From the NCBI GenBank assembly GCA_002706765.1, contig PAJV01000016.1:101001-165000 (forward strand): a stretch of DNA of 64,000 nucleotides, given 5' to 3'. Source of the stretch: Gimesia sp. Its GTDB lineage: Bacteria; Planctomycetota; Planctomycetia; Planctomycetales; Planctomycetaceae. A program made the translations under genes and the position numbers. Under the pieces are notes generated by a model, which saw only the letters and a program-made list of their open reading frames with translations, searched no databases and had not been told where the DNA came from. Of this stretch, positions 33,524-39,845 are shown piece after piece. How positions within the stretch are numbered: the first letter of the stretch is position 1; each line of letters begins with the position of its first letter.

Positions 33524-34852
33524 ATGCCATCTTCTCTCTTCCGTGCAAGCATCCCCTTAATCACAATCATGGTGACGCTGCTGTCAATGTCCAGCATGCT
33601 GCATGCCGCCCCACAAAATCTGGCTGATGTGGCTAAGTTACTTAAAGCCCCCGTCAGTAAAGATCAGCAGCAACAGGTTCTGGAATACTTCAAGAAACGG
33701 TATCAGAAAGAAAAAGATTTAACCAAAGGCAATCATAAAGCTTTGATCGAAAAGACCGACGATGGCGGCGGTTATGCGGGCTGGTTTTTGAAAGCAAAAC
33801 CGGGTGACGAAGTCATCATTTTCGCAGAGAAAGATCGTCAGTGGCCGATGGTCGAACTGGGAGACTCCGGTTATTTCGCCCGTATTGAAAAATTCCCTAA
33901 TTTTTCTTCTGCCCACTACCAGTTCGGCGTCAACGGCAAACGGCTGGAGACAAGTCGCTCCAACCGGTTCGGCTTTGAAAGCTATGAATGGGCTCCGGAA
34001 AGCCTTAAACAGGCGGGAGTTCCCCAGGGAAAACTCACACAGTTGCCTGTCTTCAAGAGTACAAAACAGTACCCGAACACCGTGCGTGACTGGTGGGTCT
34101 ATGTGCCCGCCCAGTATTCCCAGACAGGTCCTCCGGCCAAACTGATTGTCTTCACCGATGGCTACGGATACTGTCACGGTGATGGAAACGCGACCATTGT
34201 CCTGGATAATCTGATTCATGCGAAAAAGATTCCGGTTTCGATTGCCGTCTTCATCAATCCCGGCGTCATTCCCGCTACCGGAAAAGGCAAACCAGAGATC
34301 CGCAACCGCAGCAATGAGTACGATACCTGTACCGCCCAGTATGCGACTTTTCTGGATCTGGAAATGCTGCCGGTGATCCGCAAACAATACCGTATTTCGG
34401 AAAAGCCGGAAGATCATCTGATCTGCGGCGCTTCTTCCGGGGGCAGTTGTGCCTTTACTGCCGCCTGGCACCGGACAGACCTGTTTCAGAAAGTGATTTC
34501 CTTCGTGGGCAGTTTCTGTGATTTCCGCGGGATTAATGATTATCCATCCCGCAAGAACAATACGATCCCCGTCGACCAGTTTGGCCCCTGGAAAACGGCC
34601 CACGATTATCCCGGTCTGATTCGCAAAACATATCCTCCCAAACCACTTAAGGTCTTTTTGCAGGATGGTGACAATGACCTGGATAATACTCTGGGCAACT
34701 GGTTTCTGAATAACGAGCGAATGGCTGCCGCCCTTGCCTATAGTGGCTATGACCACTGGTTTGTCACCGGCCACGGAATTCACAGCAGCCGCCATGGAAA
34801 AGCAGTTTTACCGGAAGCCCTTGTCTGGATCTGGAATTCAGACCAGAAATAA
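33524..34852 (+). CDS. Secreted esterase (enterochelin esterase-like alpha/beta hydrolase)
   Basis: A 442-residue protein with a signal peptide (MPSSLFRASIPLITIMVTLL). After an N-terminal beta-rich domain (IIFAEKDRQWPMVELGDSGY) comes an esterase D/enterochelin-esterase type catalytic domain: VYVPAQYSQTGPPAKLIVFT, nucleophile GASSGG (GxSxG), KVISFVGSFCDFRG, acidic residue region LQDGDNDLDNTLGNW and catalytic His region TGHGIHSSRHG. The fold hydrolyses carbohydrate or siderophore esters. In planctomycetes the same architecture occurs among polysaccharide esterases. GGAG lies upstream of the ATG. Substrate unknown. Confidence 0.88.
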   Translation: MPSSLFRASIPLITIMVTLLSMSSMLHAAPQNLADVAKLLKAPVSKDQQQQVLEYFKKRYQKEKDLTKGNHKALIEKTDDGGGYAGWFLKAKPGDEVIIFAEKDRQWPMVELGDSGYFARIEKFPNFSSAHYQFGVNGKRLETSRSNRFGFESYEWAPESLKQAGVPQGKLTQLPVFKSTKQYPNTVRDWWVYVPAQYSQTGPPAKLIVFTDGYGYCHGDGNATIVLDNLIHAKKIPVSIAVFINPGVIPATGKGKPEIRNRSNEYDTCTAQYATFLDLEMLPVIRKQYRISEKPEDHLICGASSGGSCAFTAAWHRTDLFQKVISFVGSFCDFRGINDYPSRKNNTIPVDQFGPWKTAHDYPGLIRKTYPPKPLKVFLQDGDNDLDNTLGNWFLNNERMAAALAYSGYDHWFVTGHGIHSSRHGKAVLPEALVWIWNSDQK

Positions 34853-36674: not shown

Positions 36675-39600
36675 ATGACAGAAAAAACGCTACCCATACT
36701 CACAGCAGCAGATCAGACCGATCTGGGGCATTACCCCGCACGCTGGTGGCATACACAGGGTGAGAAAATCATCTGTGATCTCTGTCCGCGCGCCTGCGCA
36801 CTGTCTGAGAATGACCGGGGCTTCTGTTTTGTACGCCAGAACATTGACGGTAAGATGGCGTTAACGACGTTCGGTCGCAGTACCGGCTTCTGCGTCGATC
36901 CCATCGAGAAAAAACCCTTGAACCATTTTTATCCCGGTTCCAGTGTGCTTTCTTTCGGTACAGCAGGCTGCAATCTCGGCTGCAAGTTTTGTCAGAACTG
37001 GGATATCTCCAAATCGAGAGAAATCGAACGCCTGAGCGCACAGGCCATGCCGGACGAAATTGCCGAAGTCGCAGCCCAACTGGGCTGCCAGAGTGTCGCG
37101 TTCACCTATAACGATCCCATCATCTGGTCGGAATACGCGATTGAAACTTCCAAAGCCTGTCATGCGCGTGGCATCAAAACCGTGGCTGTGACAGCCGGCT
37201 ATATTACCGAACAGGCGCGTGCCGATTTCTTCGAGCATATTGATGCCGCGAATATTGACCTCAAAGCCTTTACTGAAGAATTCTACTACCGGATCACGCT
37301 CTCACATTTACAGCCGGTCCTCGAGACCCTCAAGTGGCTGAAACAGGAAACCGACGTCTGGTTCGAAATTACAAATCTGGTCATTCCACAGGCGAATGAT
37401 AACGACAGCGAATTCCAGCAGATGTGTGACTGGATCCTGAAAGAAGTCGGCCCCGATGTCCCGCTGCACTTCTCCGCCTTCCATCCTGATTTCCGCATGC
37501 GCGATCGCGGGGGAACACCGCCGGAAACGCTGGTCCGCGCCCGCGAGATCGCACTCGCTGCCGGCCTCAAATATGTTTACACCGGCAACGTGAATGATGT
37601 CGCTCGACAAAGCACTTACTGTCCCCATTGTCAGCAGACACTCATTGAGCGAAACTGGTACCAGCTGGGAAAATATGCGTTGCGGGGTCATCGCTGTGGT
37701 TATTGTGATACGGAAATCGCCGGCCATTTCAGTGACAAGCCTGGAGACTGGGGCCAGAAAAGACTGCCCGTTGACATACAGGCCATTTTAAAAAAGAACG
37801 CGGCTTCGCAATCAGGCAATACCGAGCCTCAGAAAGGTCCTTCAACGATGCAGACCAACCAGTCACCACAGATCATTGAACTCAGCAGTGACCAGGAACA
37901 GGCGCTGCTGCAGCAGGCGGCGGCTGTCGTGGCTGGTACCGTCACCCGCAGCCGGCCTGTGGACGTCCCGCTGGGAGACCTGCAGGACACAACAGTCAGC
38001 GGTGCTTTTGTCAGTCTGAAACGTCAGAAACAGTTACGATCCTGCTGTGGCAGCTTTGGCAAGCCCCAGCCGCTGGGACAGGCGTTGCAACAGGCGGCGG
38101 TCCGCGCAGCGAAAGATGATCCCCGTTTCCCTCCCGTTTCACCCAGTGAACTGGCTCACCTTGATCTCGAAGTCTGGTTGCTGTCCGGGCTGGAAGCAGT
38201 GCCTGAACAGGGAGCCGACCGGGTTGAGGCAGTGATTGTCGGACAGCATGGCCTGCAGATTCAGGCCGACGGTCGCAGTGGATTACTGCTTCCCGGCGTG
38301 CCCCTCGATCATGGCTGGGATGCTGAAGAATTTCTCAACCAGACCTGTATCAAAGCGGGACTTCCCCCCACTGCCTGGAAGGATCCCGGTACAACATTAA
38401 TGCGGTTCCAGGGAATCTCCTGCGCTGCCCGTTTAGCAGAGCTGGTCGACCTCTCGACGGAAACGCAGGTGAAGACCATTCTGGGGCAACGCGAATTTGC
38501 CCAGTATCTGCAATACATTCAGTCAACGGTCGACGCCTTACTCAAAGGTCAGGTTCCCTCCTATTATTGCGATGCCGTCTCCGATACGAATCTGCAGGGA
38601 GTCGCGCTGCTGTTGTCGCGAACAGGCACCGATGAGGAACTGATTCTCTCAAAGTGGGCTCTGAAGCAGACGTTTCCCATGCAGTCCACTGTATTTTCGC
38701 TCTGTCAGCAACTGGCACAGATCATCGCCAGGCTCAAATTGAAACCCGGTGAGTTTCAGATCAAACTGGTACTCGCTTCCGACCCGGCCATGCATGGCAC
38801 CCCGGCTCAGAATGATCTGCACGATTTTGATTTTCAGCAGCGCAGTCTGCTGCTCATTGACGGGCAGAAAAATGCCTGGTGTTATGATCGGGAACAGGAC
38901 GCAGCAACACTGCTCGCACAGGCGCAGCAGGCACTCAACAGCACTCAGCCCGAAACCGCGCAGCTCCTCAGCCTGGCGGTGCAGACCACGACGCCCCGTT
39001 TTCAGGTTGTGAACCGACCCCGCGCCGAACTCGGAACCGAAATCAGACCTGCGGGAGTGGCAGGGACTTTTTACCCTGCCGAGCCCACCCGAATGAACGC
39101 GCAGCTGGATGAGCTATTCCATGAAGCAGCAGAAACTCAACCCTGGGCTGCCGCGATGCTACCCCATGCGGGCTGGAAATACTCAGGTAAAATTGCCGCC
39201 CGTGTGCTGAACCGAATTCAACTTCCGTCCACGATTATCGTCATCGGTCCCAAGCACACACGCGATGGTGTCGACTGGGCCGTCGCCCCACATCAGGTCT
39301 GGCAGCTTCCCGATGGTAATCTCAACTCTGATCGAGGGTTGGCACAACAGCTTGTGGAACAGATCCCGGGACTGGAACTGGACGCCGCCGCCCATCGCAA
39401 CGAACATGCGATTGAAGTCGAACTGCCATTGATTCAACGCCTGGCGCCCCAGTCAAAGGTCATCGGAATTGTGATCGGCAGTGGAAACCTGGAACGCTGT
39501 GAAGAATTTGCCGAGGGACTCGCACGCGTGATTCAGCAAATGCCCGAACCGCCGCTGTTAGTGATTTCCAGTGATATGAATCATTTTGCCACAGACAGGG

Positions 39601-39845
39601 AAAATCGCCGACTGGACGAACTGGCACTGGAAAAAATGCGGGCGCTGGACCCCGCTGGCCTGCTGGAAACGGTTCGTGAGCATCACATTTCCATGTGTGG
39701 TGTGCTGCCGGCAATGATGGTCATGAAAACGCTCCAGAAGCTGGGCAAATTAAGCCAGATAGAACAAGTGGGGTACGCCACTTCAGGCGATGTTACCGGA
39801 GATTCTTCCCGGGTCGTCGGCTATGCCGGCCTGTTGATCAACTGA
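36675..39845 (+). CDS. AmmeMemoRadiSam fusion: radical SAM + AMMECR1 + unassigned segment + MEMO domains
   Basis: A single 1056-residue protein joins three parts usually encoded separately. Residues 1-370 are a radical SAM protein of the AmmeMemoRadiSam type: ICDLCPRACALSENDRGFC near 33-51, FGTAGCNLGCKFCQNWDIS with C99, C103 and C106 for the 4Fe-4S cluster, and a CPHC/CGYC zinc-ribbon pair near 316-344. Residues about 400-600 are AMMECR1 (GAFVSLKRQKQLRSCCGSFG). About 605-785 is a segment I cannot assign. About 790-1056 is a MEMO domain: AGVAGTFYPAEP, MLPHAGWKYSGKIAARVLNR, GPKHTRDG, RNEHAIEVELP, SSDMNHF and ISMCGVLPAMM, with H831, H861 and C1008 the candidate metal ligands. The function of the system is unknown. 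Confidence 0.9.
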   Translation: MTEKTLPILTAADQTDLGHYPARWWHTQGEKIICDLCPRACALSENDRGFCFVRQNIDGKMALTTFGRSTGFCVDPIEKKPLNHFYPGSSVLSFGTAGCNLGCKFCQNWDISKSREIERLSAQAMPDEIAEVAAQLGCQSVAFTYNDPIIWSEYAIETSKACHARGIKTVAVTAGYITEQARADFFEHIDAANIDLKAFTEEFYYRITLSHLQPVLETLKWLKQETDVWFEITNLVIPQANDNDSEFQQMCDWILKEVGPDVPLHFSAFHPDFRMRDRGGTPPETLVRAREIALAAGLKYVYTGNVNDVARQSTYCPHCQQTLIERNWYQLGKYALRGHRCGYCDTEIAGHFSDKPGDWGQKRLPVDIQAILKKNAASQSGNTEPQKGPSTMQTNQSPQIIELSSDQEQALLQQAAAVVAGTVTRSRPVDVPLGDLQDTTVSGAFVSLKRQKQLRSCCGSFGKPQPLGQALQQAAVRAAKDDPRFPPVSPSELAHLDLEVWLLSGLEAVPEQGADRVEAVIVGQHGLQIQADGRSGLLLPGVPLDHGWDAEEFLNQTCIKAGLPPTAWKDPGTTLMRFQGISCAARLAELVDLSTETQVKTILGQREFAQYLQYIQSTVDALLKGQVPSYYCDAVSDTNLQGVALLLSRTGTDEELILSKWALKQTFPMQSTVFSLCQQLAQIIARLKLKPGEFQIKLVLASDPAMHGTPAQNDLHDFDFQQRSLLLIDGQKNAWCYDREQDAATLLAQAQQALNSTQPETAQLLSLAVQTTTPRFQVVNRPRAELGTEIRPAGVAGTFYPAEPTRMNAQLDELFHEAAETQPWAAAMLPHAGWKYSGKIAARVLNRIQLPSTIIVIGPKHTRDGVDWAVAPHQVWQLPDGNLNSDRGLAQQLVEQIPGLELDAAAHRNEHAIEVELPLIQRLAPQSKVIGIVIGSGNLERCEEFAEGLARVIQQMPEPPLLVISSDMNHFATDRENRRLDELALEKMRALDPAGLLETVREHHISMCGVLPAMMVMKTLQKLGKLSQIEQVGYATSGDVTGDSSRVVGYAGLLIN

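Follow-up and report, generated by a model that had tools for sequence, protein, structure and literature searches.

AMMECR1 is conserved from microbes to humans. A study by Burroughs et al. 2019 reportedly concerns the PCAD-Memo superfamily. An article that cites it describes MEMO as conserved from microbes to humans (PMC7694686), and an eLife 2020 article, which also cites Burroughs 2019, speaks of Memo-Ammecr1 systems that include a radical SAM domain (PMC7159879). Other excerpts list AMMECR1 among uncharacterised proteins, in 429/524 archaeal genomes (PMC6393860), note its motif in a predicted mevalonate-pathway protein (PMC7772410), and present it as an anaerobe marker found in 3.38% of 4,227 aerobes versus 50.66% of 1,293 anaerobes (PMC13386939); AmmeMemoRadiSam, the name under which the three families are joined, occurs in five papers, one of which has it as a gene name in a prophage-site table. 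The literature that we searched gave no reaction for MEMO or AMMECR1. Here we analyze a gene at 36675..39845 on the + strand of a 64,000-nucleotide stretch of Gimesia sp. DNA (GenBank assembly GCA_002706765.1, contig PAJV01000016.1, positions 101,001 to 165,000; hereafter the window), from a genome of 7.9 Mb, in which all three families are carried by a single polypeptide.

The gene encodes one uninterrupted chain with four folded domains. Its frame runs from an ATG at 36675 to a stop codon at 39843-39845, comprising 1056 codons with no internal stop, and orthologues in the genus share an MTEKTLPIL-like start, with substitutions. An initial annotation had placed the CNLGCKFC motif, AMMECR1, and MEMO in one 1056-codon frame and identified the product as AmmeMemoRadiSam, and both points stand: the radical SAM, AMMECR1 (133.4 bits versus a TIGR04335 cut-off of 99, residues 410-580), and MEMO (261.8 bits versus a TIGR04336 cut-off of 26, residues 791-1054) families all exceed their NCBIfam cut-offs, and Pfam Radical_SAM, AMMECR1, and Memo each score above gathering at places that agree with NCBIfam. 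The chain runs radical SAM, variable linker, AMMECR1, a degenerate AMMECR1-like domain (X), and MEMO, with the following features in window coordinates:

36675..39845, + strand: whole gene, the radical SAM-AMMECR1-X-MEMO fusion (frame, family models, and orthologues)
36741..37778, + strand: radical SAM domain, residues 23-368 (TIGR04337; NCBIfam 591.8 bits versus a cut-off of 220)
36774..36827, + strand: N-terminal cysteines C34, C37, C41, and C51 (invariant in 134/134 aligned rows)
36969..36992, + strand: radical SAM cluster motif CNLGCKFC, residues 99-106 (translation and alignment)
37620..37706, + strand: C-terminal cysteine pairs C316/C319 and C341/C344 (invariant in 134/134 aligned rows)
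37791..37886, + strand: variable linker between the radical SAM and AMMECR1 domains, residues about 373-404 (low predicted local distance difference test score, pLDDT; relaxed selection)
37887..38432, + strand: AMMECR1 domain, residues about 405-586 (TIGR04335, PF01871; NCBIfam match at 410-580)
38034..38051, + strand: LRSCCG, the conserved AMMECR1 LRxCxG motif, residues 454-459 (alignment)
38472..39032, + strand: domain X, residues about 600-786, predicted degenerate second AMMECR1-fold domain (model, fold search, and profiles)
39042..39842, + strand: MEMO domain, residues 790-1056 (TIGR04336, PF01875; NCBIfam match at 791-1054)
39165..39167, + strand: H831, counterpart of the human MEMO1 metal ligand H49 (alignment)
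39255..39257, + strand: H861, counterpart of the human MEMO1 metal ligand H81 (alignment)
39696..39698, + strand: C1008, counterpart of the human MEMO1 metal ligand C244 (alignment)

Alignment shows that the cysteines of the radical SAM CxxxCxxC cluster motif and the putative 2-His-1-Cys metal site of MEMO are both retained. Eleven of twelve radical SAM cysteines (C34, C37, C41, C51, C99, C103, C106, C316, C319, C341, and C344) are invariant across 39 rows of the fusion's lineage and 95 other rows, and the twelfth, C73, is kept in 131/134. In MEMO, H831, H861, D967, H970, and C1008 are invariant in 41/41 lineage rows and 44/44 classic rows, counted after the aberrant rows L030, L052, L118, and L132 had been excluded. 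The corresponding H49, H81, and C244 of human MEMO1 are ligands of its iron and copper according to an eLife 2024 article, an excerpt of which also states that the authors could detect no dioxygenase activity (PMC11081632).

AMMECR1 and MEMO are separated by roughly 200 residues (about 586-789) that, instead of a mere linker, form for the most part a fourth folded domain, which the initial annotation, counting three domains, had missed. Family models do not recognize it: X alone gives zero Pfam matches over cut-off, PF01871 included, a Pfam scan of the whole protein returns a single AMMECR1 stretch, and X has nothing among the best 25 of 29 NCBIfam matches and nothing in the PDB by profile. 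However, a structure predicted from an alignment of 17 AMMECR1-MEMO gap stretches is confident (pLDDT 90.6, predicted template modelling score, pTM, 0.83), and the only PDB hits of its fold at E <= 0.001 are four AMMECR1 chains (1zq7 A and B, 1vaj, 1wsc), from the same three structures that match the AMMECR1 domain by sequence. Template modelling (TM) scores are 0.52-0.59 for three of these chains and 0.35 for 1wsc; the next PDB hit has E 0.14 and TM about 0.1. In profile-profile comparison X aligns colinearly with AMMECR1 along its entire length, with probabilities of 37% over 144 columns, 60% over 150 columns in global mode, and 69% over 147 columns under another column rule, versus at most 1.6% for the control pairs X-MEMO, X-radical SAM, AMMECR1-MEMO, AMMECR1-radical SAM, and MEMO-radical SAM (first column rule only). 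In the full-chain model, moreover, the order of the main helices and strands is shared by residues 405-586 and 605-780. It is thus the larger trimmed alignments together with the fold search that point to an AMMECR1 identity for X. An identity of X as a second MEMO or a radical SAM piece was considered and rejected (profile probabilities 0-1.6%).

X nevertheless appears to be a degenerate copy, "AMMECR1-like, degenerate," that has been maintained. Of 23 columns that AMMECR1 conserves at 90%, X keeps 2, a column being counted as kept where at least 50% of X rows have the residue. In LRxCxG, C and G are conserved at 1.00 in 74 AMMECR1 rows but missing from every X row, and 8% of X rows have the R. 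X is also the fastest-changing domain, with a median pairwise identity of 0.30 versus 0.70 for radical SAM, 0.49 for AMMECR1, and 0.56 for MEMO (37 rows). Two loci, L020 and L073, carry highly divergent versions of X that were recognized only after inclusion in the training set. The 1:1:1 domain ratio expected in the initial annotation fails because the chain carries this second AMMECR1-fold domain.

Selection is purifying on every domain where it could be measured. The ratio of nonsynonymous to synonymous substitution rates (dN/dS) is 0.03-0.15 in all four domains for the 4/6 close pairs where it is computable throughout. X itself shows 0.10-0.15 in those pairs, synonymous change being saturated in the other two. 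For the linker joining radical SAM to AMMECR1, 32 codons long in the window, the ratio is 0.22-0.75 over six pairs (0.27-0.75 in the four fully computable ones), versus at most 0.15 for the domains wherever a value could be given. The whole-chain model has a mean pLDDT of 91.6, with scores under 50 confined to residues 1-17 and to 380-395 in this linker, and a block mean of 59 in the cluster loop near 100-120. Writing RS for radical SAM, A for AMMECR1, and B for MEMO, with letters in their order along the chain, the RS-A linker, in which A, P, S, Q, and T abound, ranges over 36-138 residues (standard deviation, sd, 24); the A-X joint, which as measured takes in the end of AMMECR1, spans 29-39 residues (sd 2) and the X-B joint 0-19 (sd 2.6), all in 37 rows with joint ends set by hidden Markov models. 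Because the RS-A linker is variable and the other joints short and constant, we infer that AMMECR1, X, and MEMO would form one compact block to which the radical SAM domain is tethered.

The fusion recurs across related genomes. It is present as a full-length frame in 14/16 other genomes of the genus, several of these being one contig. One of the remaining two, G015, has fusion residues 217-1056 at a contig start; in the other, G006 (76% complete), the fusion is absent, as are MEMO and AMMECR1 matches. Across the genus, own genome included, MEMO and AMMECR1 each match exactly once in 16/17 genomes, both times within the fusion frame. Other genomes have this single frame too, which rules out frameshift, assembly error, and chance joining, so that neither of the outcomes against which the initial annotation had guarded, an artefactual join or absence from close relatives, was found. 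Among 397 sampled genomes of the class, the fusion profile matches 133, some weakly, and 65 in six family codes (15 of them in the window's own genus) carry a single uninterrupted RS-to-MEMO frame, counted by hand where the query was covered from residue 13 or earlier to 1036 or later with zero stops. This count leaves out G681 (one TGA), G045 (separate genes), and G608, G593, G641, and G734 (two-piece matches). In a phylum sample TIGR04337 exceeds its cut-off in 148/294 genomes. Two side observations concern further matches: G021, G035 (locus L025), and G045 (L024, L152) apparently combine a fused-type system with a separate classic radical SAM or MEMO/AMMECR1 set, and 15/17 genomes of the genus have a second, weak radical SAM match (L002, G000:C6:54022-54288; 34% over residues 93-186, in a frame of 236 residues).

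Elsewhere the components are mostly separate. We used two radical SAM peptide patterns to scan a genome collection for loci, ranked these by similarity to the fusion protein, and counted arrangements by hand from the frames between stops in the best 80, which are no census of bacteria. RS-A-X-B is found in 15 loci (L071 and L074 are cut by contig ends, and in L073 X was missed by the first profile) and RS-A-B, lacking X, in two (L082, cut at its start, and L091); L077 has an RS gene and A-X-B as a second gene, and L080 (Verrucomicrobiales) an RS gene and A-B as a second gene. The 61 others show no AMMECR1-to-MEMO chain: 30 have B, A, and RS in three frames, nine have B-A plus RS, and, in the stretch available, three show RS plus B, one A plus RS, and 18 only RS. 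This agrees with the earlier statement that the components are usually separate genes or two-domain fusions. All fused loci but one are labelled planctomycete (16/17), L066 being labelled just "bacterium." In the X-less L082, L091, and L080 the stretch from A to MEMO measures 28, 94, and 28 residues, respectively, a natural X-deletion comparison.

Phylogenies suggest that the fusion's MEMO is a separate lineage with AMMECR1-to-MEMO order, the opposite of the usual fusion. In a quick MEMO tree, a branch of length 2.39 separates rows with this order (36 RS-A-X-B, 2 RS-A-B, 2 A-X-B, and 1 A-B) from the 48 rows of other arrangements, with 99 in the Shimodaira-Hasegawa-like approximate likelihood ratio test (SH-aLRT); the very long rows L030 and L052 lie near the join and were flagged by the program as possibly misplaced. 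RS domains of the lineage group too (45 rows, SH-aLRT 90), together with L078, L081, L084, L093, and L129, beside which no AMMECR1 or MEMO was seen, and with L021, an RS-A frame cut by its contig and probably a fusion. On the RS tree, also quick and with SH-aLRT only, the fused label needs seven changes and starred branches force at least four, numbers that may be too high since L021 is among the 48/95 rows labelled unfused. Because two-gene and X-less members sit inside the lineage, fusion or splitting probably happened more than once.

Taken together, we put at about 55% the probability that this gene is a self-contained, single-chain version of AmmeMemoRadiSam belonging to a planctomycete-centred lineage, in which a tethered PflA-like radical SAM domain acts with the AMMECR1-X-MEMO block. 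Swinging on its tether, this domain would generate a 5'-deoxyadenosyl radical and act on a substrate, either a small molecule or one of the block's own residues, which the AMMECR1/pseudo-AMMECR1 pair would hold; the MEMO metal centre would then use the product or activated state. The tether would stand in for the encounter of separate proteins, and X would take the place of a partner AMMECR1 or act as a structural or docking half. A further proposal, which we rate as somewhat less likely than not, is a distinct AmmeMemoRadiSam subtype whose AMMECR1/pseudo-AMMECR1 pair bridges the radical SAM domain on its tether and a dioxygenase-fold domain with a 2-His-1-Cys metal site, one chain doing the complete reaction.

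Several observations weigh against a self-contained single-chain system. Literature searches gave no substrate, product, or activity for AmmeMemoRadiSam; the model of the whole chain has a pTM of 0.70, with middling confidence in the cluster loop (about 91-120). The resemblance of X to AMMECR1 is loose (TM 0.35-0.59, root-mean-square deviation > 5 Å), and the profile probability taken alone is modest. X matches 14/392 genomes of the phylum, ten of them of this genus and one (G289) weakly, and is thus rare outside the class. Two-gene relatives in which RS lies beside A-X-B (L077, G045) imply that covalent linkage is not essential, and the lack of X in L080, L082, and L091 that X is not indispensable in the lineage.

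The alternative that survives best, though we consider it unlikely, is that the fusion is a convenience of co-expression, with domains that are independent enzymes or subunits, a linkage that fixes dosage, and X as a spacer. It would fit the coexistence of two-gene and other arrangements, the variable RS-A tether, and the lack of any neighbouring gene recurring in more than 3/21 loci compared beyond the genus. It fits poorly with an X that has a folded model and is subject to purifying selection, with A-X and X-B joints nearly constant in length, and with a single frame in 65/133 matching class genomes. That the fusion persists under purifying selection is a good argument for functional coupling. 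The initial annotation's inference that all three act in one reaction or complex overstates the case, since fusion by itself shows neither a single reaction nor a rigid complex, given a low-confidence, length-variable tether and an RS that is separate in L077 and G045.

Less probable still is an activase of the PflA type, in which the radical SAM domain would abstract hydrogen from, or modify, the AMMECR1 LRxCxG loop, which would then work with MEMO; X, lacking the loop by loss, would be the unmodified partner. The closest solved fold of the radical SAM domain is indeed PflA (3cb8), PFLA is the best-scoring NCBIfam radical SAM model after TIGR04337, and the C and G of LRxCxG are fully conserved in AMMECR1 rows and absent from X rows. 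However, TIGR02493 (PflA) scores far under its cut-off (63.1 versus 231.75 bits), which leaves the domain outside that family. Eukaryotic AMMECR1 keeps LRxCxG too and is not known to have such a radical SAM partner, which also counts against an activase. Finally, it is very improbable that the fused form is an adaptation letting an anaerobe-associated radical system work in oxygen-respiring cells: AMMECR1 is anaerobe-linked, yet, among 80 genomes hand-picked from earlier lists, those with the fusion have COX3 in 28/30 and NRDD in 0/30, but same-class genomes with a free RS gene are equally aerobic (COX3 14/14, NRDD 0/14), as are genomes without any match (16/16 and 0/16), so that these markers fail to separate fused from unfused, other phylum genomes with a free RS gene having COX3 in 17/20 and an NRDD match in 10/20 (five over cut-off).

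Gene context gives no function, since neighbours recur in few of the loci compared beyond the genus. The gene is flanked by a divergent PlsY gene, a downstream gene for a thioredoxin-fold protein, and genes for a HisA-like protein, a GNAT protein, a PfkB kinase, and an FAA hydrolase. L062, the one genus locus with long flanks, keeps the window's synteny with the same neighbours. Outside the genus the window's flanking genes are absent beside the fusion in the loci compared, where, with frames overlapping the fusion set aside, no neighbour occurs in more than 3/21. The HisA-like protein (PF00977, 41916-42659 on the - strand, near the PfkB kinase and GNAT genes) lies beside the fusion in L062 too. 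A DUF3467 frame, scanned in L065 (L065:3945-4829) and with homologues in L066 and L068, stands directly upstream of three fused genes. In the window, a 358-codon frame at 33719-34795 (-), antisense to an esterase-like gene at 33524-34852, is probably spurious. Elsewhere, 17 loci with proteobacterial titles have an alpha/beta hydrolase gene downstream of radical SAM and in the same orientation (L086, L087, L092, L094, L101-L104, L106, L108, L109, L113, L114, L119, L121, L133, and L135; 40 of loci L078-L141 are labelled Pseudomonadota). The L087 hydrolase, the sole one scanned, matches Pfam DLH just over cut-off. These hydrolases could act on the product of a ring-opening MEMO, or their position could be plain synteny of related genomes.

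The fused architecture may well be listed in protein databases already. We recognized no description of the fusion in the literature searched, nor did we find one there of the hidden AMMECR1 copy or the separate lineage, Burroughs et al. 2019 lying outside this coverage. A natural single chain shows which radical SAM enzyme pairs with which MEMO and AMMECR1 and defines a minimal set of parts; the cryptic second AMMECR1 fold would belong to the machine in one lineage, and we would hazard a guess that AMMECR1 might normally work as a pair. The question of function thereby becomes testable on one recombinant protein. If one chain indeed does the whole reaction, the orphan function common to human MEMO1 and AMMECR1 would be solvable on a single polypeptide.

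Compared with known systems, the chain combines familiar folds in an unusual way. The MEMO domain shares its predicted fold with extradiol dioxygenases, e.g., 2-aminophenol 1,6-dioxygenase 3vsg (TM normalized by target 0.64), whose third ligand is Glu, whereas the fusion has C1008 and so lacks a 2-His-1-carboxylate site. It resembles human MEMO1 more closely (7kq8, iron bound; TM normalized by target 0.82), but the human chain lacks radical SAM and AMMECR1. Among solved radical SAM folds the nearest is pyruvate formate-lyase activating enzyme 3cb8 (TM normalized by target 0.77); unlike PflA, the fusion's domain is joined to AMMECR1-X-MEMO and has further invariant cysteines at both of its ends. 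The AMMECR1 structures 1vaj, 1zq7, and 1wsc represent a fold common to the AMMECR1 domain and, by prediction, X. MEMO-AMMECR1 (B-A) frames of proteobacteria and others (L090, L094, L102) likewise carry both families on one chain, but in reverse order, without X, and with a separate RS gene. The closest system is AmmeMemoRadiSam itself (TIGR04335, TIGR04336, TIGR04337), all three parts of which the fusion has over cut-offs, with cluster and metal residues kept. In its usual form, however, this system consists of separate genes with MEMO before AMMECR1, whereas the fusion is one chain with AMMECR1 before MEMO, an extra, degenerate AMMECR1 domain, and a MEMO domain on a long branch of its own.

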